Source of the DNA: Neelides folsomi | Taxonomy: Eukaryota > Arthropoda > Collembola > Neelipleona > Neelidae | NCBI GenBank assembly: GCA_034687125.1 | Contig: JAQGBZ010000067.1 | Location: 62,001-126,000, forward strand | DNA: 64,000 nt | Direction: 5' to 3' | Shown here: positions 2,659 to 64,000 of the stretch, in pieces | Layout: each line of letters begins with the position of its first letter | How positions within the stretch are numbered: position 1 is the stretch's first letter | The notes under the pieces: model-generated | What the model was told of the DNA's origin: nothing | What the model saw: only the letters and a program-made list of their open reading frames with translations | Databases searched by the model: none | Translations under genes and position numbers: made by a program

Positions 2659-5600
2659 ATCCTGGGAATGGGATTCCAATTTCATCTGAGGGAAGTGCAC
2701 ATAAAGTTGGTGTGACCGATTTAAGTTTAAACAATTGCCTTGTGTCGTTAAAGACGTGCGAGGCTCCTAAAGTATCTATTTAAACAACGAAAGAGAATAA
2801 TTAGAAAAGAAATAATGAAATATCAATCGGATTATAAAAAATATTCATACTAAAATCATATTCTGCCCCCGCTTCGTCGCTCAACACCAGATGTGTTCCA
2901 AGGCTCTTTAAGAGAAATTTGACCGAATTGTGTTCTATCAGAAGGTCAACTGAATTTCCAAGATAGCTTATACCTAGAAGAATTTAATTTTAGTAATTGC
3001 AATAATATTGGATTCTTATAGTTAATTCGATTGGTTAAACCATTAATGTTAAGTCCAGTTGATTTCGGTGGTGGTCTTGGTCTTAAAAACTGAAGTTCCT
3101 CAACATGAAGTCTTAAACCTCCATAAGCAGTTAAAATACTTTGGAGGAATCCTCCCATTCCAGTTATAAAATTGATTGCTCCCAATGTTGGAGGTTTTGC
3201 TTCAGTCCATACCTTTAGATTTAATTCAAGATTTTATATTAAATAACCTCTAGCCTAATTATCATGAATACAATATTATAAAATTTTTATATGAATACCT
3301 TAAATGGTTCTCTTTTATACCAATCGTAACTTCTCTCAAAAATCCTCTCAGCTCTAATTGAATCTCCCAATTCTACATGTCCAATTGTGTGCATTGCCCA
3401 AGTCATGGCTGGTCCTGAGTCTCTTGTCACTTGTTCATAATAATCCAAGTCGTTTCTTCGCGTTTTCTCATCCATTTTGTACATTAGAGGATATCCTACA
3501 AGTACAACATCAGCTTGCTTGATCAGACTCCCATTGTATCCGTCAAATTCTGGATGAAAATCCATAATTTCATCGTATGGTAATTTGAGACTTTTTGCTG
3601 TTGAAACCCACGCTTCTGGAATATCTAAATCTGGACAATAGCATTCCTCAACATATCTAAAAAGTTATTAATTTTAAGTTTTTAAATGACTCAACTGCAT
3701 TATTACTCATATGAAAATAATTGTAGTAAGTTGTGTTTATACTTCGCAAAAAATATGGAATATCCAGCTTGAATATTCGTATAAATTGAATTATTCACTC
3801 CATGCTTATCTTCATCAGGTGGCATTACAACTAAAGATGCATAAAAATGCGTTAACCATAAGCCTTTACAATACCTCTTTAACTGTAATTTTTCTATGAA
3901 ATTAGTATTAAACTTACTATTAATATCATAGAACTTGGTCTCAGAATTAAAATCCACTCTTGATGCCCAAAACTCGGCGATTTCTTTTAGCAATCCACAT
4001 CCCGATAATTCATATTTGTCTGTCTTATTCATGAGCCATTGTGCATCTCTGGTCATTCCAATATACTGCCGAATTGCAAAAGCGATATCTCCTGTAATGT
4101 GAACTTGCATATCTCTCGTTTCTGGACAACAGTCCGGCGTCACTTCTCTTCCTGTATATCCAGACTCCCAAGGAAAACGTGTTCCTGTATAGCCGGTTTC
4201 GGTTGCTCGGTCTCTTGCAGCAGCAATTCCGTTCAAACGATAATTTAAAAGTTCTCGGGCCGCGTCAGGATACAAGTACACAATTGGTGGAAACATCCAA
4301 GTTTCTAATAATTTTAAAATCAAAATAATCAATCATACCTTCATTAATTAATGTCCTAGTCTTAGATCTAATTAAGAAAACTCTTAGTGCACAATAGACA
4401 TCACCTGTATCCCAAAATGAATGTCCTTGATAATCGGCAAGTAATTCTCCATATGCAAGTCCTCCAGGACTTAAACCATAAAATTGTTCTTGGGGACTAT
4501 TGGTTGGAGTTGTGACTGGAAGAGCAGAAAGAATGTAATACAAAGCTCCGTTCACGACTTTGGCAACTGCCAAATTCCCCACAACTTCAATTTTCCCCTC
4601 TTCGTTCCATAAAGTGGTCCAGCGTGTTACATGAGAATTGTAAACGTCCAAGTCGTTTCCGTCGGTAACCAGACTCGCAACTAAATACATTGTTAATTTT
4701 AGTAATTAATTAGCTTTTAAGTTTCAGAGTGGCTCACCTCCATCAAAATCACTTTCTGTTGTTTCGGGACTGAGGCCGTAGGATGCAAAATAAGTAACAG
4801 TTTCTTCACCTTGCACTATAAGAGCTTTTGGGACCTATTAATTTTAACTAAACTTTAAATCCAACTAAGAAATTAATGTGGTTTGTTCATGAGTTAGAAA
4901 ATTACGATAGTTGCAATGACACAAGCAGCAGTTGGATTTGGTTGATATTTTGCATCTTCAACGGTCAGAGTTCTTCCACAGGTTTTTGTAGCTGGGATTC
5001 CTGCTGGAAATTTGCTATAAATTTCTTCTGGTTCAAAATCCATGTCTTCACTCATGGCTCCCTTATTATTGGAGAATCTTAATGTTAATGGCACTGCAAC
5101 TAAATATTTACCAAAGAATATTATTTCTACCATTAATTTTGATTTTTTCTTTTAATAATTAACGTTTACCGGTTTCTGGCAATGGTTTGATGTAAAATTG
5201 TGACACAATAACCCTTGTGTAAAACCTATGAGCAAATGTTCTGTGCTCAACGGTATAATTTTCCAATTTAAAAGTTTCAACAAAGACTCCTGTTTAAAAT
5301 TTTAAATTAATTGCTTAAATGCTTTTAAATTTTATTCAATTTAAAGTTGTACGTTCCTCGGGGTCAAAATTGCTAAATTTTACTTAATTATATTCTATTG
5401 ACCTTTTTCTACATCTAAGGAAAACTTTGCATCAGTTTTTCCAGGATTTATAATTCTTATGTTATTCTTTGAAGGAATTCGTGCTCGATGACTTTCACCC
5501 CGATCACCATTGTACAACCCATTTAAATTCACCTAAAATATTAGTACAAGAATTAATGTCAATCACGTAGAAATGAAATTCAATTTACTTTGTCTGTGTA

Positions 5601-14985: not shown

Positions 14986-17414
14986 TCAATTACTCGCCCT
15001 CGAATTATTGAGTTGCGAGGTTGTTGGAGAAGGACCCCAAAGGCGGATTGTCCCATCATCTGAAACTGAGACGAGCATTTCAGGTCGGACGGGATTCCAA
15101 GTTACACAATTGACAGTCCTTGAATGGCCAACTAAAGCTGCAATTGGACGTTCTTTCCGAATGTGCCAAATGTACACTTTATTGTCTAAAAAATAAAGAA
15201 AAGATTATAACATAAAAATTAATAATAATGACAAATATCGATATTTTATTTTATTTTACATTTAAACAAAAAGATACTTTCAAATTTTCAATTTACCTTC
15301 AGAGCCGGAAGCAATAAAGTTTTGGTTGATTCCTCCGAAACATGAGTGAATTGTGTAAAATCCTTGAGTGACTCCTTGAAATTTTCTCACAAGAACCCGA
15401 TCTTCTAGATCCCATAAATGAGTGCCCTGAGTGGCGACATTTAGAAGAGCAAGCCGATCTGTCGCGTCGATGGTGAAGCTCATAATTGAATACTCTTCTT
15501 TCAATCTTCAAAATAATTCATGATTATAAAGATTAATTATTTATTGATAAAAATAGTTAAAGTTTTGCCAAAACGTACATGTTGTGATCATGATTTGAAG
15601 TGTTGAAGATATATCCACGAATTCTGTTGTGAGTGTCAGCTGCAAGAACAGTTTTTCCATCACCTCTGTATCCCAAACATTGGACACGAACGCCTTCCCA
15701 TGAATCAAGAACATTTCCTTCCAAGTCCTACAGTATCCATGCATGAAATTAATACAAGATTAACCTAAATATTAAAATCTTTCCCAATATCTTTAAATCA
15801 AATTCTCAGAGATATCGAGATTTATGAAAATATTTAATTTTTCTTACACAAAAGTAGAATTGTCCTCGAGTTCCACCAGTTACGAATCTCTTTGAGTCTG
15901 GATGCCAGGCAGCGGAAGTGAGAGAATCCTCGGGGCCGGGGGCGACTTTAACATGGAGTTCTCCAGTGATGGCATTCCAAATGAAGAGTTCGGGGGAGTC
16001 GTCTGGACCACAAGCGATGACATAGCAAGAGTCAGGGCTCCAGCTCAAATACGAAACTCCATATTGGTGACCGTCCAACGTTTTTCGATGACTCACACGA
16101 AGATCAATCTGACAAATAGGAAATAAATAAATATCAATAAATTGAAATGTGGATTTAAATTCCAGTAGAAATTTATGACAGAGTCTGTATGAATTATCAA
16201 GAGGATTTTTTAGATTTACCGGGTGAACGTCCCATAGGATGAGCGTCGTGTCTTTGGATCCAGTCGCAAGTTTTGTCCCATCGGGAGAAAATCGACAAAA
16301 CCAGACTTCATCCGTGTGGTCGGTGAGGGTTTGGAGTGTCACGGCGGGGAAACTCTCTTTCGAACAAACATGGTCGACAAGGAGGGACAACTCTTCTTCC
16401 CATTGCGTATTGTGATAGGGGCATCGTTCGGTTTGCCATTCAAGCGACTGTCTCAGGAGAGTATCCCTACCAATTCACATAGATTAATAAATACTCACAA
16501 GTTAGTATAAGCGCCATTTGTGCAAAATTGAGGTTAAATGAATAGATTTCATAATGAGCTTACAATCTCCTCGGAGGGAGCATAATGGCAGGGGGAAGAA
16601 ATTGTTGAAGTTGTTCCATGAGCAACGATCGGGACTCTTTCCCTTCCCATCCTGCTTGTTCTCGAACTTCCTCCGGGGTTGCACACATGATGTAAGCGGA
16701 GAGTTGGTGAACACGAGTTGTGTTGTGGTTCAAGGGGGTCAATTCATAACGAAGAGTTGAGAGGGCTTCGATCACTTCTCCGGCTTCTAAATGCTCCAAG
16801 TACTTCTGCTCCAATAGAAGAAACTGCATCTCCTAAATTATATAAATGAACTCCCATAAAACTTAAATTATAAAAGTGAATCTAATTGTATGTTACATAA
16901 TTATAATATTTTACAATGAGATTTTCTGGGTTTTCTAGTAGGCCTTTGAGTTCGTGAAGATCATCGTGAGCCTCTTGCCATTTTCCTTTCATGACATGAG
17001 TTCGAAATTTTGCCGCGACTGGATGATCCATTCGGCATTTCGACTCCTCCATTAACATTTCAGCGCTTTTCCTATTAAAATCAATTAGCTTTGTTAATAA
17101 AAATTTCTAAATTTGTAAGATTTAGTATAACAATTTAAAAATATTTTTTAATTACGAAAGGCCCATTGCAATCAAATGCTGTCCGATGATCCTCACGATG
17201 TCTTCGTTACATTTTTTGTCTCCGATTGAAGATGCGATGGAGGATTGACCATCTTCCTCCACGTGAACTCCATTCGTCGCCACTCCATTTTCCTTCACAG
17301 CACTTTCACCTTCACTACCATTCTTAGCCTGTTAATAAAAAAGGTTAGTTTAAATCACTCACCCAATCTTAACTTTTAAATCCTATTTATTTAACTTACT
17401 TGCTGAGTCTGCAT
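14986..17414 (-). CDS. WDR26: WDR26 homologue (GID/CTLH ubiquitin ligase WD40 subunit)
   Basis: Homologue of WDR26/Gid7, the LisH-CTLH-WD40 scaffold of the GID/CTLH E3 ubiquitin ligase. Reading order: acidic N-terminus, LisH ([14 protein letters not shown]), CTLH ([39 protein letters not shown]), the block [13 protein letters not shown], then WD40 repeats beginning with [20 protein letters not shown] and [15 protein letters not shown], through [38 protein letters not shown] and [11 protein letters not shown], and ending [30 protein letters not shown]. Similarity to animal WDR26 runs end to end. The ATG at 17414 ([13 protein letters not shown]) is chosen because family N-termini often start this way; the same frame stays open upstream to a splice acceptor at about 17512, so a further 5' coding exon is possible. 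C-terminal stop at 14986-14988. Nothing appears broken. Confidence 0.9.
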
Positions 17415-24113: not shown

Positions 24114-27100
24114 ATGGAAATTCGCACATTGTTTCTCCTCCAACTACTCGTCTTCACTCAAGTCTCTGCGAAGATCCCGATCTCTGTTCGAGTCGGTGAG
24201 TCAGAAATCATTTTTCAATCATTAATACATTTAAATATGTAAACAACATTGGGCATTAGCTCATCATGAAACACTCAGTTTTAACATTTTAGCTATTTTT
24301 TCAATTATCTTTTTTGTCGTCCAACATCTGGAAAAATAATAAGTTTAATGCATGGTTCCAATCTCCCTTCATTCCTCATCTTGATTCTTATAAGAACTTA
24401 AAAGCAAAGAAATCATCCCTGGGGTTTATATGAGAAGGGTTTGAAAAACGAAGGGAGGAATCAAAAGGGATTCGTTCGTGTCAGAAGATCCCATGATTAA
24501 TCATCAACTTCATCGCAGTCATCCTCGACAAATTCCTCGAAACTCCCGCTAACGAAGGGACAATGATAGGGAGAGTTGTAAAGTGTTGTGTAGCCCTTAG
24601 GAAGGATCCCTTTCAATAGAATCTCATTACGGCCTCAATCCTCTCAACACTGTCAGAGGTTCCCTGCCTTAACACCAAACGTCTTCAGCTCTACAAACAA
24701 GGTTGATTTTAATCAACTTCAATTCTTCTCGATCGACAACTGTCGACACGGGGAATTAAACTTGTCATAAACATTTAAGTTTATTTTACGTCATTCACTA
24801 TTGTGAATTTATAATTTAATAACAAAATTACATACAAATATCACTAGTTATCTCGTAATTCCAATCACAATGTCACAATTAATACCTACTACATACAATC
24901 ATACACTTATTGGATTACTTGTAATAAAATTAATATTTTTATTTACAGATAATAAAGGAAATACCTAAATAAGCCCTTTAGTGAGAATACAGTTTTCATA
25001 AGGGCGTATATAATCCCCGTTAATTGGAAAAGAAAAGAGAATAAATGTTGAGAAGGAAGGGATTAAAAAATTGGGCAATAAATAAAAGAATCAAATAGGG
25101 ATAGGTAGGGGAATCGAGTTACGCTGCAGGTGAGAAGAAGAGCTCCTGTGACAATAGCTTATAAAATATCTCTACTGATAAGTTTGATAAGTATTATAAT
25201 AGCAATAACGGAAGATCCCTTAGATATTAAGAAACAAAGGGAGAATCAAAAGGAAGGTAAAAAACTTCACTGCGGGAATTGGGATGGGAAAATGTGTATG
25301 TGGAACCTGAAGGGCCCCATTGGCCCTTGAAGGTGGCCGAACTTCATTTAAAAACGCATCTATTCTTCTCCACCCGGCCTTGGCACTTCTTCTCCAGAGC
25401 CAGATCCTCGAGGAACATGACAGTTTTTGAGGTGGATATGGATATCCTATTGTCCACAATATCTTCATTTGAATACCTACATGTCTTCCACGGGTCAAAA
25501 AACATTTTCGTTTCAATTCCATACATCTCCGACGTGCTCATCTTCTCCGATAAGACTCAGCTCAGGAATTCCAGACGCTAATAATAAAAAAATATATATA
25601 AACGTCCAAGTCTCCATTAGTCTATTGTGAGCTCCCGACCGTTAAATCTTAATTCACTTCAGCTGAGCGGTTTGTCAAATATTTTATGTCCTGTAAGGAT
25701 ATTTGTTCGAAAATAACCCCTGAAAAACATTCTCAATGGGTGGAAATGAAAAATAGTTAAATAGGTGGATTTAAGCCAGAGAATAATAAAAAGCCGTTTG
25801 AATGCTCTCTTGGTAAATGGGCTCATAAAAGAGGTGAAATCTCCAACTCATCTCTTTTGAAGAGAGATATTATAATATTATTTCTTAAAAAGGTGTTCCA
25901 TGACCAGAGGGTCAATTCTTCCACACATCACGAATCCTCAAAATCTCCATTTGGAAATGGAAGAGATGGAGCCGGGAGCTTGGGTTTTTGCATTTATGAA
26001 CCCACGTGGACATAATAAATAAATATTATATATCTCCTACATATCCTGTATTACAATATTACATCCAGTTCCAGTACCTTATTATATTACATATTGGAAT
26101 GCATCTTGAGATTTAAGGTTCGAAATGATGAGACACGGTTGGATTGCAAAGGAGAGTTGAAAGGTCCGAAGTTCCCATCTGAGGCTTCATTTCTCCAATC
26201 CTCCTCATTGGACTCATTCATGAATTATGAGTTAAGGAGTTTTAAAAAGCGTAAGGGGAGATGATGGGAACCGTGAAATATTTCATGTCAGCTCATTCCA
26301 CCGGTCCTTAAATCATACCCATTCAAATCTCCCATTATGAATCCTATAAAACTCCATTCCACCTCCCGCCCATAAATAAGAGGAAATTGAGGAATTTTGC
26401 CAAAAGTTCATCGGAAAAGGAAATTAAATTTTAATTCGAAGGAAGCTATAAAATGGGTTGATATAAGGATAAAAAACAAGAGTTATTATTCCAATACTCC
26501 CAACATCTTTTCATCCCGTAGTATTCAGATATTGAGATAAAGGAGTAAAAATACGCGGATGGAAAAAATTCCCTTCCCAGTTGTCTCTCTGTGTGTTTTC
26601 TCAATTTTTTAACGGATCTCGACAGAAGGATAAATAGAGGGAGGATTCCGTATATTATACTTGAGGAACTTGAGATGTGATTAGAGTAAGATGTTCGAAC
26701 TCATAGCGATGAAAGGATTAATAGCATGAATAGATCCCCCAAGGGCTCTCAGGAGAATCAATCCAAGAAAGACCTAGCATTTGGGGGAGAAAACATGAGT
26801 TATTTTTAATGGGAAATAATGGGAGATGACAAAACAACCACGCCTTGATTTACAACCCCACACAATTTCATCCGCTCTTTTAAACCAGGTGAAATCATGA
26901 TCAAAATCATCAATCCAATTATGTTACCTCCAAATACGATAAGTCGTAATTATCCCAATAATGCTTCCTTCATTTTCCTGGAATGTTCAAAAGTTCAAAA
27001 GTTGTTGTTCAAAATTGAAGAATTTGAACTGAGGGGAAAATATTTTCCCAGAGCTCTCAACTTCCTGATGAATTTGACGAGATTTGATCGAGTTGAAGAT

Positions 27101-30100
27101 AGGAGAAACAAGGCAAGGAGTGAAAGCTTCCTTTTCACCCCTTTCCTCGTAAATAGATGCGGAGTGAGTTCTGAGATTGAGGAGTTGATTGAAACTTTGA
27201 AGGGTTGAGGGGGGCAAGAGATAAACGGGGGGGGGGGTTTCGGGGGGGGGGGGAATTCCGTTAAAAATAATGTCCTCAACTCAGGGCAGACGAGCGAGTC
27301 AAAGTTGTGAGATGGAGTTCTTTACGAGATTAGATAATTGTGTGGCATGAGGATATTTCCGTATCTCCTAATGGAAACTGTCGACCCAAAATAGAAGCAA
27401 CTGCTGTGAAACGATAAATTACATTGTCCCCTCAACCCTCCACCTCAATTTCAAAAAACGAGAGCAAGTAATGAAGGTGCTCCTCAATGTACATGCCAAG
27501 TCAACATGTGCTTCTTCCACCACTCGAGCCCTTAAAAGGAAACTCCGAGATTCAAAGGGGGGTGAAAAGGAAATTACACACACGTTTTTGAAAACCTCCC
27601 TGGTCTGTTGAAGATTTAAATGCATTAGGCAAAGAGCTTTCTTCAATTCCTCATCCCCTGGCTGCTTTCTTCGTGTCCAGTCAACTTAAAAGAACGGTGG
27701 ACCGGAACTCACGAGGGAGTAAATCAGCTCGTTTGGTTCTTCCAATTTCATAATGCTCAAAACACATATTGATACATTTGGTCGAAACATGGAATTTTTT
27801 TCCCCTCCGCTTCCTCTCTTTAAAAGTCCAAACAAATGAGAATTTTCAACTCGATTGAAATTCCAGAGATTCCAAATGGGAAAAAATCCTTTGTTTTCTT
27901 TGAGTTAACAACCGGATTTGATTCCCTATTTTACAAATACCCCCTTCTTATCTTACACCCTTTGTAAATGTGTGTAAAACGAGATTAAATGAATTAAATA
28001 AACAAACAAATGGATTTGTTTCAGAGTAAATCTAATAAATTCAAGACAATTAACAATTTTTGAACGTTTCATTTTCTACTGGCTATAAAAGCTTCCTTTC
28101 TTTAAAAAATATTGAATATTTGTTAATAAAATGAAATGAAATAAAAATTAATAAAAGCGTTAAAGTTGTTTTATTGTTTTAACAGGGAGCGTTTTTCTTG
28201 AGAAGGAACAAGATGTCCATGGAGCTTTTCAAGTCGGCGTCAAGTCGCTCAAAACTCGCCATCTTCTCAATGAGACGGACATTGAATTTGACATTCAGTA
28301 CGCGACGTTAAATGACTTTTTTCATCTTTACACTCGAGCTTGTGTTGAACTTGGTTATGGGATTATTTCCCTCTTTGGCCCAAGCGACCCAACCCTCGAC
28401 GTCCAACTGGAATCAATTTCAACTTCTTTGGGAATTCCGCTCATCTCGACGGCTCCAAGAAAGAGTGGAAGTGTTTTGCCTGAACAAACCCTCACTCTCT
28501 CGCTTCATCCCACTCAAGTTCAAATGATGAGTTTGATCAAAGATCTGGCGACTCAACTTGGATGGAAAGACATTTCCATTATTCATGATCCACTTTATGG
28601 TTAAAAATCGAAATATCTTTTAAAGAATCTAATTATTTTAAGCTTTAACTTTAAAATATTATTTTATTAAAAGAAAATGAACAGGTATTTAAGATTCAAT
28701 TTATAAAAAAGGATTTTAACATTAAAGGTGTTCTTGAAACTTCTTCCTTGGCCGAAAAACTTCAGATGTTGGGAACAGTTAGCGTCCATCATGCTTCAGC
28801 CGATTTACGAGCAACACTTGTCCAATTGAGACTCAAAGGCGCTCGAAACATCATCATTGACACCGGAGTGGAAAATGTTGAAAATGTGATCCAAGCCACT
28901 TTGGATACAGGGATGATGACAAAAGCCTATTCCTATATTTTTACGATGCTTGTAAGTCATATTTAAAGTATATTCCATCTTCCCCATCCATCTCATGTCA
29001 TAAACCAATATATTTAACCCAGCATCTTTGTAAAGATGAGGATCTTTTAAGGATCTTTTTAAAAAGTTTTTTTATAAATATGCGACCATTGAACCACCAT
29101 ATGTGTCTTTAGCTTCACAATATTTGAAATATTACATCTACATCATTGAATAATACATTTTGGAACTTGTGTCCCGAAGTTTATATTTATTACATGGGTG
29201 TAAAATGAGGGTGAATTTAAAGAAGGGAGGTTCGGAAGTAAGAAAGAGAGTGACAGTAGGAGTGACAGTTATTGACATTATATGCCCCTCGTTGTTTCCT
29301 CTTTTAAAATTCTGTTTCTTGGTTCTCTCTGTACTTACTCTATGTGATATATGAGAGATCTAAGAAATTGGAAGAGGGTGAGATGAAGGGGCGAGATGAA
29401 GGGAGATGATAAGGGAATTTGAGAAGGCAATGGGGGCGTGCTTCTACCACAACGTCGATCTCTTTCATCTCTCCGAGAGAGTTAATAAATAAGGGCCCTT
29501 AAACTCCTCCGACTCTCTTAATGACCCCATGGACACTTTTAAGGACATGCGGAGCGGGAATTGGAGCCGACTCTCTTACTCACAAGCCCTTGTCTTCGGC
29601 TTCAACATTCTGGATGAGAAGAAGCTGGAGGAGATTCAAAAAGACGAAGTAAGCCCACTTTCACTCCTAAACAACCCAAATGGGGAGGAAATTCTTGTGA
29701 ATACTTCCTAAGGATGGTACATTAAGTAACGAGGGAATGAAAAATGACAGGGGTTGGAGAAGAGCACGAGGGTCGGGCTGACACTCGACGCTGTGGAAGT
29801 TCTCGCACGCGGGCTCGAGGGATTTGACAACTCAGGAACTGATTTGTCACCGCCAGCTCCGGCTTCCACTTCCTGTGCGGCTGAGAAGAAATGGGAACTT
29901 GGGGAGGAATTAAGAGACGCCTTTACTTCTGTATTTCCATTTTATCTATCAAAACAATTTAAATCTTGTTAAACTTATTAACAGATACTTAAACAGTTTA
30001 CACTAACTACTCTATATTATAACAAAGAGGATACCAATAAGCTAATAGGGATTGGGTCTTGCTTCTTTTTATTAAATACCATTAAATTTAATATTTATAA

Positions 30101-33100
30101 AGTTTTTAAATTATTCGTAAGGAATGACGAATTTAATAAATACAAGGTAAACTTTGATGGAGTCAGCGGACCGATCGCTTTTACAAATGGAGTTCGTTCA
30201 AAGCTCAGTGTGGACATTCTTAAACTTCAATATGAAGACATCGAATCTCCTTCATTTTTGCCTGTTGGCAAATGGACCGAAGGACTCGTCGACTCTACTG
30301 ATGGAATTAAAATTTTTGATAAAAACTTCATGACCAATGAAAAACCAGCAATTAATAAAACGCTGATCATCTCCATTTCACAGGTGATGGAATTTGTATA
30401 GGTAATTTGAAGTTTTTTTAACATACCGGGATTTCAGACTTCGAGCTGCTATGAAAGATTTGAAGACGGAGTTGAAAAAGGTTTCTGTGTGGATTTGGCT
30501 CGCGAACTTTCATCTTCCGTTGGTTTCAATTACAATTTTCGACCTTCTACTGATGGACGGTATGGGAAACCTGACCCGCTCACTGGACAATGGGATGGAA
30601 TCATTGGAGACGTCCTCAGAGGAGTAAATGTCAATTTATCATTTCACTAATTAAGCAATTAGTCAAAGTTCTGCTTCACCTATTTAACAGAGATAAATAA
30701 TAGGCAGAGAAGGAAAATGAGTAGTAGGATTATCTGCATAAAAACCATGTCTAATTAATTATCCTCGTATTCATAACTCAAATAATGTTTTCAATTTATC
30801 ACACCCACTTGGTGAAGGTATTGACGATTAACCTATAATTCAATTCATAAGTATACATACCTTCCATGCTTATAAAATACCTATACCATATGTCATTTAA
30901 TATATGATCCATCTTGTAACTCAATCTAATGTGTATTATTAGGAAGCGGATCTTGCATTGGGAGATTTGACAGTCACAGCTGCACGTCAAGCCGTCGTTG
31001 ACTTTTCCAATCCCTTATTCCACACCTCCATCAAAGTTCTTTACAAGGTAATTGAATCAATCTTCTCACATATCATCTCAGACTCTTTTAATGAAAATGA
31101 AGAAAACTAGTCAAATTTGTTTTTTTATTTTCTTGTTTGAGACCTCATATTTTTATTATTCATTGGTTCGGATATTTTTAACTTCCAATTTTTCAAATAA
31201 AAAATATTTTCAAAATTAACTATAAGCACTTTGCCCTCCATTACTAATTTATTACTTATTTAAATACATAAATAGCAGTGTAAAGAATATGAAGCACTTT
31301 TGAAAGATATCCATTTGTGTATTATAATCCGCTTGGAATCCCAGGCCCATCAAAATATTTGTTGTAAGCTTCATTTTTTACAGAGAACATCTTATGAGCA
31401 AAAATAAAATTCGTGTACGTTTAGATATGATTAGACACTGACATTAGAAAGGACAAGAGAGAAAAAAGCTGGGTGGAGAAACATGAAATCTCACTTTGTT
31501 CTTCTCCTAATTCTCACTCTATTATTTCCCCAACAATATTTTCCTCGTGGCTCCAAAATTTTGTCCCGATTGTGAAGCTCCCTTGTTGCTCCCTGCTTGG
31601 AGTCCAATCATCGTCTCCCCAGCCCTCATAACATCTTCGGAGAAATGTCTCACGTTCTCGTCTGCTGGTTTGGGCCCAAGGAAGGGACCGCGCCAATCAG
31701 GGTGCTTGTACGCCTAGAAAAATTTATAATTAATTTTATTTTAAAATTATTTTTGTCCAGATTATTTAGATAAAAGCTGACTATGCTGGTTAATAAGTAT
31801 TAACTTCTACATAAATATGTATGGTACTTGTATTATGCATATTATATGAGTGTAATAGTTATTAATTTGAAAAGCTTACGGCTCTTCCAATGGCAAAAAT
31901 AGTCATTGTGACAAGAGGAACATTTTTCTTCTCAATAAGATCGCAAGATTGGAACAAGTCAACATCAGGAACTCCATATTTTGTGCACGCTCGGAGAAAC
32001 CTTTGATCAAAAGATGAATATTTGAGAGGCTCGTCGAAAGAAAGAATCGTTGTTTGAAACAAAGGGGTCATTAATCAAGGGGCTTACTGTTGGATATTAT
32101 CCATGAATTTGTAATCTCCTCCAGAGACATTAATCCTTTTAATGACTCCTGGCTGGAGGCGGTTGATGAGTTTACACAAAATGATTCCATCTCTCAATGC
32201 ATCTTCGTATGACATTCCTTTAAACCATCAATATTTCACATGAGCATTCCAATATCAATAGTTTAAACCTTTAATCCTATTCTAACCATACAATAAAATC
32301 CCTTCCCTTGGTCTTTAATCATCCCCTAAATCTTAAATTGACCTACCCATTGGAAAGCTCTCTCCAATAACTTGCTCAATCCACATCTGAGCCGCGTATT
32401 CCTCTTCTGGAATACGTTTTCCAGCAACCTGACAAATAATAAAAAATATGGATTTTTACATAAGATTGAATACTGGATACTAGCATTTAAAAAGATAAAA
32501 TAGTTTATTAATTAACTTTATCAAAATAAACTATCCGAAATAAATGAGCTTGTAAAGTAAACAAGGGGTATAATTAAACACAATTAAACAACATATAATT
32601 GTTTATTCACTAAAGTAATAAATGGAACAGACTTACTTGCCATTGTGGTCTCGACATTGTGATTCCTTATGGTGTCTTTGAGTTTGTAGTTATCTCTCTC
32701 GACCTATGCAATCAAATGGAGTGAAATTGTGAATAATCTCCCTTTTTAAAAGGTGGTGTACGTGGGAATGATGTCTATTTTCGCCATTTTCTAAAATTAA
32801 GTGTTAGTCTGGCCGTGATGACGGAATCGCCCACTTCGATCACCCTCATTTTTGACTCCCGAATGAAAAATGCTTCCTCGCGCTCTCATTCCACTCCACC
32901 TTATTATAAGTATACTTATAATACTTGTTACACATCTTCCTCAATCTGATATCTTTTCTATGTTCGAGTACATTTCTTCATCTGATTCAGCCAGTTAAGA
33001 GATATACAGAATCAGAATGACTAACTATGAATATAAGTTATTATGTAGGAAACCTGGCCCACACATTCCCCCGCTGCCGCTCCAAGATCCTCTCAAAGGT

Positions 33101-35210
33101 CTTGCACACATTCCTTTGGCGTATTGAAGAAGGACTGTTTATTCTCTTTCAAGGTTTCGTTAACGTTAACCTCCTTTGAAGGATCTGCGGCAATTACGTA
33201 GATAAATATAGTTAGGGAGTTGACAGGTGAGGTTGGTTGGTGTGGAGGGAGTTGGAAGAATCTGAGCGATAAGATGGGAATTGCAAAGGACATTTCCATT
33301 TCAATTCTCTGCTCCTTATTTAACAAACCGCTCCTACTCATAACATTCAAAAAATGTTTATTTGAAAGGAGTTGGGAGCCAAAAATCGGATCTTGTGTAG
33401 GGATCCGGCCGAGAGGATGATTATGATTCAACACACTCCTCATACCAATTATCTGTTCTTTAATTTATGACCATTTGCTTTGGCAAATAGAAATGCAAAT
33501 GAGGACCATTAATTATTTTCCTCATTTCCAATAATACATAGAAATATAAATAACCCTGCTGCATAATGCCATTATTGATATGAATAAAGGCTTACAATAA
33601 ATAAACACTCGTAACATCTGGTTGAATTAAATATGACCGTAAATCCTCAACACTTTATTGCTTAAACTTTTTCATTTATCATATCAACATTTTAAGAAAT
33701 TCTCTTTTGTAATGCCGAACCATAGGATAAAATATGTGTTTTGGGTCTGATACAGTGATTTTAAAGTAATTACTAAAAATGCGCAAATTACTTTCCCTAG
33801 TATAATAGATGTTGGTAATACTTTTACTTTGTTGAATATTCTAGAAAGGAAATGTTCCACGTGGAGGTCTTGGGTCATTTGCAACTCCATTTAGTTGTTG
33901 GGTCTGGCTGAGCATCGTCGTTGCATTTATTTGCACTGCGTTTGTTCTTCGATTTGTGGCGTGGGTAAGTCCATGGGAAATTAAAGAGGAATCAGCGGTG
34001 GCTGGATCGGAACGAGGAAATGACCCGCTTGGTAATAACCTCTCTTGGGCAAATTCGGCCTGGATCCTTGCCAGTACTCTCGTCCTTCGAGGAACTTCCT
34101 TCCGTCTTCAAGTAAATATTAACTACATATCACACTCAACATATTAACATCAAGATGTTAAATTACCTATTAAAATGATATTACAAATGTTTGTTTAATT
34201 ATTAATTATAATTATTATTCGGATGATGAAAATTCAATAATTTTAGTAATTTACCCAATGTATAAAAATATCTTATTTTAAAGGCCTTGTCCACCAGAAC
34301 AATTGCCATCGTTTGGTGGCTTTTCTCTCTTGCCATCCTCATCATTTACGGAAGTCTGATCGCGGAACAATTTGACTCAAATTTGGAGTCTGAGAATTTG
34401 GAAAGTCTCTTGAGGAATCCTGCATTTGAATTTGGAGTTCTTCAAGACGGAGCTACAAATGGATTCCTGAGCAGTAGCAAGCGTGAAGACATTCAGAGAA
34501 TTTGGTGGAGAATCCTCAAAGCTCCTCAAACTTCCTTGTTCTCCTCCATTGAAGAGGGAATTGAAGCCGTGAAGGGATCAAATGGAAACTTTGGATTTGT
34601 GGCCGAGGAGCAAAATCTTATGTTTGCTGCTGAATCTGACTGCTCTTTGGGTCTCATTGGACCACTCGATGCTCGTTCTTTTGCCATTGCAATGCAAAAG
34701 GGTAATTAAAAGAAATCACATTGCTTTAATATTAAATTAATAGAAATCCCGTACAACATTTCTAATAATCTTTATCGTAAATTATTTAAAATTTAACAAA
34801 TTTTGAAATAAGGATCCGGACTTCGCGAAAGCATTTCTCAAGGAATTCTTCGATTGGGTGAAAATGGAGTTTTAAGGCAGCTTGAAGAGAAATGGTGGGG
34901 CGGGGGCGGATGCAACGGAAAGAAAATTCATCAAGTCCCTTTGAATGAGTTTGTTGGACCTTTGACCATCCTTGTTTTCGGTCTCACTGCTGCGGTTCTT
35001 ATTGCTCTTGCAGAAAGAATATTTCATCATAGGAGATCACACAGAGGGTTTTTCAGGGTAAGTATAATCTCAATTAAAATTGAACATTATAAAAGTAAAT
35101 GAAATATCTTACCTTAATTTAATTGCAATTTATGCATCATTTAGACAGCGACCGAAAATGGGAATGGGAATGGGAAAATTGCAATGAACGACACGGAGTC
35201 AGACGAATGA
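24114..35210 (+). CDS. ionotropic glutamate receptor, kainate-like with divergent pore
   Basis: Twelve coding exons (24114-24195, 28186-28599, 28728-28951, 29544-29648, 29751-29930, 30147-30383, 30438-30623, 30943-31047, 33845-34111, 34284-34701, 34813-35057, 35145-35210) sum to 2529 nt, 842 residues. Order: signal peptide (MEIRTLFLLQLLVFTQVSA), amino-terminal domain (FGPSDP near 85; AYSYIFTML near 238), LBD S1 (residues ~415-511), M1, pore loop, M3, LBD S2 (VAEEQ; EKWWGGGGC) and M4. It is a cell-surface ion-channel subunit. Conserved for ligand: LTVTAAR (core Arg), the T of DGATNGF and E of VAEEQ. Odd: the EP(P/Y)YV stretch and Pro of PLT are missing, M3 reads IIYGSLIAEQF rather than SYTANLAAFL, and the Q/R region reads STLVLRG. 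This may be an IR-like or modulatory receptor. Intron 8 hosts the Mp20 gene. Confidence 0.88.
24196..28185 (+). other. iGluR intron 1 (4.0 kb), long noncoding block
   Basis: Sits between the signal-peptide exon and the amino-terminal domain. It is GC-richer than most spacers here and has many purine-rich tracts, with no convincing exon. At 27228-27252 are two long G runs separated by TTTC. The size and composition suit an intron bearing regulatory elements, but nothing specific is identifiable. Confidence 0.5.
31522..32657 (-). CDS. Mp20: Mp20/calponin-like muscle protein, nested in an iGluR intron
   Basis: Homologue of insect muscle protein 20 (calponin/transgelin family), an actin-binding protein of synchronous muscle. 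Five coding exons: MSRPQWQ; VAGKRIPEEEYAAQMWIEQV to FPMG; a CH-domain exon SYEDALRDGIILCKLINRLQ to FMDNIQQ; an exon FLRACTKYGVPDVDLFQ to FAIGRA; and a last exon starting AYKHPDWRGPFLGPKPADEN. It has one CH domain (about residues 20-130) and one C-terminal calponin repeat, IGLQAGSNKGASQSGQNFGA, ending KILLGK. The length (about 185 residues) matches Mp20. The whole gene lies on the opposite strand within iGluR intron 8 (31048-33844). Exon junctions are all in frame. Chd64/transgelin is the alternative name; the single calponin repeat favours Mp20. Confidence 0.93.
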
Positions 35211-40400: not shown

Positions 40401-43109
40401 ATTTCCTGTCCACAGTAAAGCCAGAGAGCTTCACTCAAATAAGGATTATGTGAAGATGCACTGCCTCTTGGGAGCCAAACCATCTCAACACATGAAGCAA
40501 GTACAGTTGGCGTTATATATTGCGGCTAAAAATTTAAATCCAATATCATTAAACCTTTCTTAAAATTACGAAAATAAGATAAAAAATTGAATTTTAGTAT
40601 TAAAATCTTACAGCATTTCCTTGTGTATTCTCCTGAACCAGGAACTCATGATGAAGGATCATAAGTCGTCCAGAAACATTAAGAACAACTGAATGTTCTT
40701 GTGGTGCAGGAGCAGGAGAAAATGAGGTTTTAAGGGTTGTAAGGTAAACAGAAATGACACAAGCAGGATGGACGCAAAGAGCCCCGATATCAATTGTTTG
40801 GAGACATTCGCAAGGTTCGATTCCTCCAGCTCCCCAAACATCTTTCAAATCTCTCCTTAACTGAAATATGGCAAGGGTCGAATCTGCAGCAAAGACGAGG
40901 AGTTTATCCCTATCAAGAGACAGGAGGAGAATTTGGCTTGGTAGTCTTTTCACAAGAGCATTCTTCCGATCTAATTTCGCATCTCTTGGGTAAAATCGAA
41001 TTTCATCTCGATCGGCACCAATATCGTATACAGCTACAACGAGAAATCCTTCCCACCACATCATTCCACCAACGACCACAAAGTCACGCTCTTGAGCTTC
41101 GTTTCCAAACAAGTGCCATTTTCGTTCAACAATTGAGTAATGAGCTAAACCAAATCTTCCCGATACTCCAATATGAAGTCCTTCACTGTCCATTGCAGTG
41201 TACTAAAAATTAAACAATTAATGTTACATTTAACATACAATAATATGCGAACTTAAATAAAACCCAACTAAAAGTATGTGATTCAAATGTATTGACTTAC
41301 CCTAATTGGCCAATTAGGAGCGAGGTATGTATTCGGAATGGGCACAACGACCCAATTTTTGTTATTTCCAAGTGGAGCTGCAGAATGATGCCCTTTCCTT
41401 GAATCCTTTTGGGGACCACCAAAACCTTCACCGGAGAAATTAATAAGCAAACGATCTTCTCCTTGAAGGTACAAATGTTCAACTTGGCTCATGCTGGGAT
41501 TCACTGTAAGCGAACTCTTGACAAAAGAGACAGAAGCGAAAAGTCCGCCTCCTCCACCACTCATCTCACTCGTATTTCCTTCAACGGCCATCCATAATTG
41601 ATATCCCTCTGCAGCCCAGTCGAAGGATTTAAATGTGTTTTGGGCGAATGGTGAAACATCACCAGTCCACGACCATGAAGATGTCAAAAGAGAACCAAAG
41701 ACACTCCACAGTGCAAATCCTCCCTTGTCCCAAGATACAGCCATCGCACAACCGTCTTAAATGAGGAAAGAGAAAGCTATAAGAAAACTTGAATATCATT
41801 TATAATTTTATTTTAAAATTATTATTTACCAGGCGTCCAAGCCATGGTTTTAACAGCTCCAGGTGATCCAGGAAAATCTTTGGATGAGAGCCGGAGAGTG
41901 AAAAGTAGCTGAAGTGCTCCGGATGTATCATCAACGCAAAAAACGGATACTTGAGAACTCGCTCGTCCAAAGGAGAGCAAACGGTATTTGTGATTGACAG
42001 CAGAACACATCGCATCTTCGACACCTGGAGCCCAAATTCCTTGAATGCTGTTTGGATCATAAGCTTTTGTCGAAGCGTTGAGGAATGCGGCTCTTCCGTC
42101 GCTCAAAACAAGCGAAAACCCCCCAACCAAAGGAGAATAATGAAAGTCAATCGGGTAAACTTGCTCCTAAAATTAATTTAAAGTTAATTAACAATCGAGG
42201 TATAATTTACATTTAACATTATATATTAACATTATATTTAAATCTGGTACGATGTAATGTAATTGCATACGAGAATAGGAATTGCTCTTGATGCATGTTG
42301 ATCGAGTGAGAATGGAATTCGGCGGAGATCAATAGCAAAATCGGAGTTAACTGACCCATCCCATCGGTATCGCAAAATATGATTCTCATCAGTAGAGACC
42401 ATGAGCTCGTCACGAAAAAGAGCAGCGCAACCAACGACCCGACCTCGGACAGCAATTTCTTGAACCTATTTTAATTATAAATTTTTTAATTTGGACTACT
42501 TTAACTAGGGTATTTAATGATTTACTTACGAGTTGAAGAGTTATTGCTGGAATCGGCTCTTTAAGAAACAACTCATCACTTTCTCGTTTCAGTTTTTTGT
42601 TATCTGAATCCACTTGCTCATACAATGTCTGGTTTCCAGTGCCCAAACAATAAAAGAGCAAATATCCACCTCCAGTCTATATATATATTTAAAATTAAAT
42701 CAATTAAATGTTTTAAACATCATCAATATGTTTAGTAATAAACTTACAACAATGACAATTGATGTTGAATCTGGTTTCCAAATCAAAGTGACATTTCTCC
42801 CAAGTTTCTCTATTGAGTTGGTAGACCTTTGGTGAGAGACAACAGGAAGGCATGGCTAATGGTAAAATGAATTATTTATGAATTTTATATAATCAAAAAT
42901 ATGATATTATATAACCCTAATCAAAATTGAATAATGAATAAATATTAAGAGGATTGTTAGCAAACCTTTGATGTCCAAATTGATAAGGTTGAGTGAGTAA
43001 GGACGGCAAAAATTATTTTGTCCCTATTGGCCACAACTTGGGAGACAGGAGAACCCGGACCACCCTCAGGAATTCGGAGAATCTTTGGCCATCCAAAAGT
43101 GAAATACAT
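37420..43109 (-). CDS. RIC1: RIC1, Rab6 GEF complex subunit
   Basis: Homologue of RIC1, which with RGP1 forms the guanine-nucleotide exchange factor for Rab6 at the Golgi and supports retrograde trafficking and procollagen secretion. It starts MYFTFGWPK, matching family MYFLSGWPK, and runs through an N-terminal beta-propeller ([85 protein letters not shown]), then helical blocks ([80 protein letters not shown]). Many short exons. The tail after [10 protein letters not shown] is a Ser/Pro/Glu-rich low-complexity region, as in other animals. A Ser-rich insert ([20 protein letters not shown]) lies before the last helical blocks. Stop at 37420-37422. No disruption noted. Confidence 0.93.
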
Positions 43110-62246: not shown

Positions 62247-64000
62247 ATGGAGACATACCTTGCCCTCGTCGTGTTCTCCATTTTATTCGTTACCACAATT
62301 AGCTCGTCGGAGTTATCAAGTGATCCCCATTGTCTCTGGAGATGGAACAACGGTTCCTTACAGTGCAGCGTCAACTCTCTCGCCGACAACGTCAACTTCA
62401 ATTTGACAGCTGAGGAAGAAGGAATTGAAAATAAGGTGAGTCAATACAAAATTTAGGGTCTCGCTCTCAAATGGCATACTTAAGGATACTTTCATTCAGG
62501 AGAAGCCCACACAAGTACTACAAGTATATTATAGTCATTGTCCCTTTAGTCTAGACATATTCATTTTTCGACTTTAGCCCATTTTCTTATTTATTTATAT
62601 ACCAATTTTCTTTAAAGTGAGTCAGAAAGTCAACACACGTGTTCAAATATTTCGTTTTGACTTGATTCAAGAGACTCGGAAAAGCATGTTTAAAAAATAA
62701 TGCCCATTTGACCAACACAATAGGTAGTTTTGAAGAGGAAAATCCTTAAGAGTTTAATTTTTAAGTGGAGTGACCATAAATGTCGAGCCTGGATGAATTG
62801 GGTAGTAAAATTCCCGTCATTTTCTCTTTTAAACTCAATGCTCCCACCATGCTCCCACCAAAGACAATTTTTTCTTCTCCTTTCATCTTGTAGATTCTTC
62901 TATGGAATATTTCTGGCTGTAACTTGTTATATACCAAAACATCTCTTCCTGTACAATCTTGTATATCTCATCGTCCTTTGTACCTTTTAAAGTTCTGGGT
63001 TGTTCTGGGCAAGGCCAACGTCTTCTCACTTTTAAAACTGACCAAGCTCGCGTTAAAACTTTATAGGTCTGTAATAAAAATAAAAGCATTTATTCAATGA
63101 GCTCTGAATTTAATTTACGACATATAATCGGCTTTATATCTCTCATGGATTGAAATGTACAATTAGGCTCAATTACCATTTAGGGTTCAAGAAGGTTGAA
63201 TTCGTTACAGAGAAAAGTTTCCCATTGAATAAATCTCTCAACTTTGACAAGTTGAGACGTAATTGGTGTAATTGATCATAATTGTATGCTATTTCTTCCT
63301 TCTCCCAACCTATTCTTTCCTCGAACTAATACAATAGAAAACCAGAACCCTTATTAAGATAACAAGATAATCTCCAACAGCTAAATCAATACAACAATAC
63401 AAATTCTAGAAACTCTAAATTACAGGTATTAAACTCTAGAAGATAACAACATAATTTGCTCAAGTGTAGGTTTCAATTGAGTTCTCAAACAAGACCTACC
63501 GCAGTTTCGTGTAGGAATTCCAAAGTGTCTTATGGATTTTATGACTTTGTTGTTAATTCAAATTGTTTGTCCAACAGGTGAGAGAGCTGATCATCGATTG
63601 TCGCGAAATTAGTCGAGAGGAAGAATCCCCTTCATTGATTCTCCGTCTCCTTCCTCGTCTCACCCACCTGAGCATCTCAAGATGTGGGAAAGTTCGGAGT
63701 TTCCTCTCCGGTCGTCGAAGCCCCGTCCCGCTCACGTCCCTCTCATTACGAAACAACAGCATTATTGCCCTACCGCCTGCCTTCCTCTCATCTTTCCCAG
63801 CACTTCGATCCCTCGACCTCACATCCAACTCCCTAAGTTCCCTCTCAATCAAAGGGAATTTATTCGGGACCAACGAACGTCTTGCAATTCTCCGTTTGTC
63901 TTCAAACCGTTTGAGTTACATCGACAATGAAGTTTTCTCTTCACTGGTCTCACTCAATTCCTTGTATCTGGATGGAAATTCCCTCGAGTCCTTCCATGTT
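62247..64000 (+). CDS. leucine-rich-repeat receptor-like protein, possibly Toll, partial
   Basis: Two exons: 62247-62435 and 63578 to the window edge (phase-0 junction ENK-VRELIIDC), 204 residues so far. Signal peptide METYLALVVFSILFVTTISS, then an N-terminal Cys cap (CLWRWNNGSLQCSVNSL) and LRRs: LLPRLTHLSISRCGKVRSFL, LTSLSLRNNSIIALPPAFLS, FPALRSLDLTSNSLSSL, LAILRLSSNRLSYIDNEVF, LNSLYLDGNSLESF. The cap C-x-W...L-x-C and the 'DCRE..REEE' segment before the first repeats resemble long Tolls (Toll-6/7/8/18w group), but the LRR ectodomain alone cannot separate this from other LRR receptors. Gene continues beyond the window, so no transmembrane or TIR domain can be checked. The 1.1 kb intron contains no obvious exon. 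Confidence 0.75.

Follow-up and report, generated by a model that had tools for sequence, protein, structure and literature searches.

A candidate kainate-class glutamate receptor gene of Neelides folsomi without the SYTANLAAF gate motif

Gene model and gate region

The DNA analysed was a window of 64,000 nucleotides from the springtail Neelides folsomi (assembly GCA_034687125.1, contig JAQGBZ010000067.1, positions 62,001 to 126,000 of the forward strand; C67:62001-126000 in the contig names used here for this genome of 75.1 Mb and 840 contigs). On its plus strand, at 24114-35210, lies a candidate gene for an ionotropic glutamate receptor (iGluR) of the kainate class, in which the residues of the ligand pocket are kept and the SYTANLAAF motif of the third membrane segment (M3) is absent. 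Few stretches of animal glutamate receptors are as well conserved as this motif.

The gene model consists of 12 exons and 11 GT-AG introns and yields an uninterrupted predicted protein of 842 amino acids, which runs from a signal-peptide-like start through an amino-terminal domain, the ligand-binding segment S1, M1, the pore loop, M3, the ligand-binding segment S2 and M4 to a short tail (Table 1). The original prediction, which placed the receptor at 30438..34701, had captured a real part of this gene, namely exons 7 to 10 only. Pfam matches to ANF_receptor (PF01094, 7.8e-29), Lig_chan-Glu_bd (2.3e-27) and Lig_chan (8.7e-16) follow one another in this order and precede M4; the Lig_chan match stops at residue 628, within M3. 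The amino-terminal domain is complete, as had been proposed, with profile positions 3-351 of 353 covered. A spliced alignment guided by a GluK2 segment agreed with the model in the four introns from 30624 to 34812; 5' of exon 7, a spurious piece was attached and exon 6 was not recovered. The gene is present as a single copy: when the S1-M4 part was compared with its own genome, 25 matches were obtained, five of which were the gene itself and 20 of which showed 21-41% identity.

Receptor loci of the same genome were rebuilt against GluK2 (n=15); the weak C178 was left out of the tree. On the evidence of similarity and of the tree, three loci (C2, C163 and C168) were classed as kainate-like and two (C110 and C170) as AMPA-like; C9 is GluN1-like, and C290 may represent another NMDA type. 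C34 and two neighbouring genes on C698 resemble IR25a, and C116 resembles IR8a; these IR-type genes point to an arthropod, and COX1, located on C742, is read in the invertebrate mitochondrial code. C88 and two genes on C164 are other members of the ionotropic receptors (IRs), a family described in the accessible part of PMC2924276.

M3 of the window gene starts normally (ALSTRTIAIVWWLFSLAILI) and continues as IYGSLIAEQFDSNLES, where GluK2 has SYTANLAAFLTVERMES; the altered upper end finishes in acidic residues. The absence of SYTANLAAFL, for which IYGSLIAEQF is read, had been correctly noted. For comparison, a profile of M3 was built from 15 rows that did not include the window gene (three vertebrate receptors plus 12 genes of the same genome) and was searched against all six frames of 79 own-genome loci, a partial survey, as one profile search lists 72 Lig_chan matches. 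Matches of at least 10 bits were obtained at 37 places. At all 36 others the match runs through the place of the motif; that of the window gene (22.3 bits) ends at the Tyr. Below 10 bits, where the survey is not informative, were C66 (AYKGTLFKFFT), C178 (IYKSKIISFLV), C236 (AYKSKLFGALVFP), two places on C259 (GYKAKYFEYIIFP) and, further discussed below, C53 and C78. Both AMPA-like genes C110 and C170 read SYTANFAAVRT, with an Arg in the gate, which no other surveyed place does. None of the three kainate-like or two full AMPA-like genes among the 15 rebuilt loci shares the gate of the window gene.

Conservation was also scored in those columns in which eight AMPA/kainate references do not vary. 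Of the seven such columns in the gate, two are kept by the window gene; C2 and C168 keep 7/7 each, and C110 keeps 7/10 of its own set. Elsewhere the window gene keeps 13/26 columns in S1, 6/11 up to M1, 4/5 in the pore, 5/8 at the start of M3, 2/6 in the M3-S2 linker, 17/28 in S2 and 3/6 in M4.

The model was built from genomic sequence alone and from one assembly, so that the true M3 might lie in an unseen exon or the sequence of exon 10 might be wrong. Such an artefact is considered very unlikely. A single exon encodes M3 and S2 in one frame, and SYTANLAAF is absent from its two other frames, by which a frameshift in exon 10 was rejected. In a six-frame search of 23-36 kb with the M3 profile, no alternative M3 exon was found, the only stretches besides exon 10 scoring 8.7, 5.4 and 4.4 bits; the best of these sits in intron 7, between two S1 exons. 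No further Lig_chan match was found on the contig at E 0.001. The original prediction had named as its refutation a place among the kainate receptors together with alternative exons restoring the motifs: the kainate class is indicated, and neither a restoring exon in 23-36 kb nor a further Lig_chan match on the contig was found.

Mutation of the lurcher site produces constitutively open channels, and this site falls within the replaced stretch. A pore without a sealing M3 end might accordingly let cations leak continuously, whether the subunit acts alone or in heteromers, and a constitutively active placozoan AKDF receptor is mentioned in the accessible text of PMC12226733. Which residue occupies the lurcher site, however, varies with the alignment (Glu without gaps, Ala with one residue lost), and a leaky channel is regarded as improbable.

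Ligand pocket, S1 loop and pore tip

Tyr456, Thr486, Arg491, Gly656, Thr658 and Glu708 of the pocket are kept, as established by alignment and by direct reading; they are taken to be the equivalents of Tyr450, Thr480, Arg485, Gly653, Thr655 and Glu705 in GluA2 numbering. The core Arg, the S2 Thr and the S2 Glu had already been reported as surviving. The accompanying claim that part of the glutamate site was lost proved mostly wrong, since the residues that contact the ligand directly are retained and only the P-(Y/F) loop of S1 is missing. In the accessible text of PMC6307864, amino-acid binding is assigned to Arg485 with an acidic residue at 705, and glutamate binding to Gly653 with Thr655; all four (4/4) have their counterparts in the window gene. 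Judged by these residues, the subunit probably binds glutamate.

The codon of Arg491 lies at 30985-30987, and the Asp that stands for the Pro of PLT is encoded at 30964-30966. This Asp is present as originally described, but it is no lesion: of the three kainate-like paralogues modelled, C163 and C168 carry it as well, and so does Drosophila CG3822.

The one clear change at the pocket is the S1 loop. Under the best splice model, exon 6 ends LIISISQ and exon 7 begins TSSCYERFEDGVEKGFC, so that the EP-(P/Y) stretch is absent, in agreement with the original prediction; the loop is six residues shorter than that of paralogue C2 (EKPYVMLKSDSNLTGNARYEGFC) and is without P-(Y/F). A weaker donor (TTT/GTATAG at 30396, giving a 42-bp intron) would yield ISQVMEF/TSSC, which adds VMEF and hence a Phe but still no EP. 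A donor at 30402 was rejected, as a stop is read first. Inside the intron, beside exon 7, an in-frame NIPGFQ is found at 30420-30437; it has the length of the missing EKPYVM and is either a vestige or due to chance.

The pore tip reads STLVLRG, with Leu at the Q/R site and the adjoining Arg that had been pointed out earlier; GluK2 has Gln-Gln at these places. Four places past the Q/R site, Ser stands in the window gene and Glu in GluK2. The pore Arg is not unique: C2 reads LRQG, with Arg at the Q/R site itself, and the pore tip of C168 is VGGG, both genes being otherwise canonical kainate-like.

Silencing or decay too recent to have left visible damage is another reading, favoured by a long end branch, two motif losses and a 54-bp intron beside one of them. 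Decay is nevertheless given little credence in view of 842 codons without stop or frameshift, 11 GT-AG introns and the kept pocket. In the frame of the gene, 324 of 7578 possible single-base changes (4.3%) would be nonsense, and none is present, although the end branch amounts to 1.85 changes per column, which argues for selection on the frame. Together with the pocket, the S2 cysteines 720 and 773 are retained, and these features along with the stop-free codons speak for selection having probably acted on the gene.

Receptor class and related genes

Similarity was ranked among solved structures only. Over the full length, the best relative is GluK2 (1.4e-97; PDB 8f0o), and the best AMPA chain follows at 2.3e-78; with the amino-terminal domain alone, 99.5 bits were obtained for GluK2 vs 51.1 bits for GluA2. 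In the 19-row tree, the window gene is placed with the AMPA/kainate rows at 83/95 (not starred) on its long end branch (1.85), and in a 20-row tree with C78 added this placement has 85/92. The most identical tree row is C2 (33% over 326 columns). In approximately unbiased tests, p_AU was 0.171 with the window gene held with kainate rows, 0.288 with C163+C168, 0.242 with C2, 0.0609 with GluK1+GluK2, 0.084 with all IRs, 0.077 with the IR25a/IR8a-like rows and 0.0905 with AMPA; the NMDA grouping (0.0416) is the sole one below 0.05.

Gene structure helps more than the tree. In the numbering of the GluK2 segment, the introns lie at 76, 111, 197 (phase 0) and 339. The first three are found at the same position and in the same phase in C2, and 339 is common to C168. 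Intron 76 is widespread, being present also in C34, C698 and C116; intron 197 is found throughout the five kainate- and AMPA-like genes, with phase 0 confined to C2. In the two mapped IR25a-like genes the introns lie at 190 and 349, differing from 197 and 339. The junction of exons 6 and 7 falls, by eye, at position 7, where an intron is also found in C2, C163, C168, C110, C170, C34 and C88.

Read from the sequence, both in class and in anatomy, the gene is best taken as a kainate-class iGluR rather than an IR, because full-length similarity, the amino-terminal domain and most intron positions point there. Divergent IRs are marked by having no amino-terminal domain, and PF01094 is matched here. 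The original suggestion of an ancient IR-like receptor is consequently not favoured. An IR-like chemosensory receptor or co-receptor would be compatible with the grouping with IRs, which is not formally rejected, with relaxed M3 motifs, which are frequent in the genome's IR-like genes, and with the intron of C116 at 198; a kainate-type amino-terminal domain, the intron pattern of C2, a complete amino-acid pocket and the presence of IR25a-like and IR8a-like genes elsewhere in the genome make it very unlikely indeed.

A second gene resembles the window gene in part. C78 (C78:2500-8000) is AMPA-like, grouping at 99/97 with C110 and C170 in the 20-row tree. Its pocket is kept (EEPF, PLT, Arg, GST and the S2 Glu), and its M3, altered after SYVAN, reads SYVANYSAERSKGD. 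Between M1 and M3 there are three stops in the genomic frame and no readable pore loop; a GT-AG pair at 5107-5178 (a 72-bp intron) would join the flanks in frame, skipping the pore loop. With the window gene and C78 held as one clade, p_AU was 0.0511. If both genes work, gate loss with the pocket kept would have arisen at least twice. That this lineage at least twice kept the ligand site yet gave up the gate, and so possesses gateless sensors acting as obligate partners or as non-channel receptors, is possible but doubtful; if true, such sensors would reveal for which members of a tetramer a gate is necessary at all.

Delta receptors are reported to have adhesion or metabotropic roles. The window gene, too, might encode a non-ionotropic receptor, with the ligand site and the amino-terminal domain used in adhesion or metabotropic signalling and a vestigial channel. 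The altered gate and pore, next to the kept amino-terminal domain and pocket, agree with this, and C78, with its pocket, its M3 and its missing pore loop, is the stronger example; M1, the pore loop, the M3 start and M4 are, however, all present in the window gene, for which such a role is held to be rather unlikely.

Table 1. Features of the candidate receptor gene (window positions).
Feature	Position	Strand	Basis
Exon 1, signal-peptide-like start	24114..24195	+	start ATG, GT donor
Exon 2, amino-terminal domain	28186..28599	+	gene model, Pfam
Exon 3, amino-terminal domain	28728..28951	+	gene model, Pfam
Exon 4, amino-terminal domain	29544..29648	+	phase-0 join aligned with GluK2 YIFTTLD
Exon 5, amino-terminal domain	29751..29930	+	gene model, Pfam
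Exon 6, end of amino-terminal domain and first S1 strand	30147..30383	+	gene model, Pfam
Intron 6, 54 bp, at shortened S1 loop	30384..30437	+	CAG/GTGATG donor, TTTCAG acceptor
Exon 7, S1, starts TSSCYERF, without P-(Y/F) loop, has Tyr456	30438..30623	+	gene model, alignment
Exon 8, S1, Asp484 (PLT position), Thr486, Arg491	30943..31047	+	gene model, alignment
Exon 9, M1 and pore loop	33845..34111	+	gene model, Pfam, GluK2-guided alignment
Pore tip STLVLRG	34073..34093	+	direct reading
Exon 10, M3 and most of S2, has Gly656, Thr658, Glu708	34284..34701	+	gene model, alignment
IYGSLIAEQF replacing SYTANLAAFL	34344..34373	+	alignment, M3 profile survey
Exon 11, S2 end with second S2 Cys, M4	34813..35057	+	gene model, GluK2-guided alignment
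Exon 12, cytoplasmic tail and stop	35145..35210	+	gene model

Other genes were also recognised in the window. A calponin/transgelin-like gene (minus strand, 31525-32428; CH domain 3.1e-19, calponin repeat 5.6e-11) is nested in intron 8, and an MTP18/MTFP1-like gene (plus strand, 35.9-36.4 kb; PF10558 9e-17) lies downstream. Further matches were a GH65-like one (minus, 3290-3664), WD40 (minus, 15809-16474), a weak RIC1-like one below the curated cut-off (minus, 41286-41756) and leucine-rich repeats (plus, 63557-64000).

Proposed role and comparison with known systems

The explanation preferred here, tentatively and at somewhat less than even chances, is that the gene encodes a ligand-binding kainate subunit without a normal gate that acts as a modulatory partner in heteromers. 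The obligatory modulatory subunit that the original prediction had offered as one possibility is thus still the most plausible reading. The complete amino-terminal domain would serve assembly, and the kept pocket would bind glutamate. The upper M3 end, by which the channel is closed and opened in almost every relative, appears to have been replaced or shortened, and with this altered gate and a Leu-Arg pore tip the protein would most likely form no normal homomeric channel. Its putative partners are the canonical kainate subunits C2, C163 and C168, and in such heteromers gating and Ca2+ permeation may be changed.

Several observations weigh against the modulatory partner or the evidence used for it. 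The M3 alignment is ambiguous, being ungapped or with one or five residues lost, although SYTANLAAF survives under none of the three. In the M3 survey, 12 of the 36 other places were themselves profile rows, and the match of the weak IR-like C53 (AYRSLTMQVILS, 7.7 bits) likewise stops at the Tyr. Gate columns are few, two divergent IRs keep equally low numbers of them (C88 2/7, C164a 1/7), and the gate does not stand out statistically from the remainder of a fast-evolving protein. The shorter S1 loop could weaken binding. As to class, the tree rejects neither IRs (0.084) nor AMPA (0.0905) nor kainate alone (0.171) as companions of the window gene, and the intron of the IR8a-like C116 at 198 is one residue off 197, in another phase. 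C78 speaks as well for total loss of channel function, or for decay.

A natural kainate subunit without SYTANLAAF but with its ligand site would be a ready-made experiment on the need for this motif, which was treated here as usual, not defining, for the kainate class. No report of a kainate-class receptor without it was found in a limited literature search. In the accessible text of PMC6307864, SYTANLAAF is well conserved in most sequences and kainate receptors are described as expanded in arthropods. Lower conservation of the motif is given there for Lambda and some Phi iGluRs, which the window gene resembles in this respect, being itself of the kainate class; Lambda is stated to occur only in sponges and Phi in no protostome. 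The accessible part of PMC12226733 reports one arthropod Phi and some M3 divergence in placozoans.

Within its own genome, the window gene has the introns 76, 111 and 197 in the same phase as C2, which keeps EKPY and SSYTANLAAFLT. C78 shares the kept pocket and the changed M3, but is AMPA-like and keeps EEPF and PLT. The divergent IRs C164 and C88 have a relaxed M3 too (TYIGILTSNMT and TYSGNLVAFLT), but their M3 match runs through the place of the motif, and their introns and pocket differ from those of the window gene. Drosophila CG3822 (KaiR1D) is the best solved relative of C168 (ligand-binding domain, PDB 5dtb), through which the Asp in the PLT position was seen; it has this Asp (AIADLTI) in common with the window gene but keeps the P-Y loop (LSNPYCM) that the latter is without. 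With vertebrate GluK1-GluK3, finally, the window gene shares the domain order, the amino-terminal domain, the pocket residues, the S2 cysteines and M1-M4, and it differs from GluK2 in the absence of SYTANLAAF, in LRG instead of QQG and in an S1 loop without EEPY.

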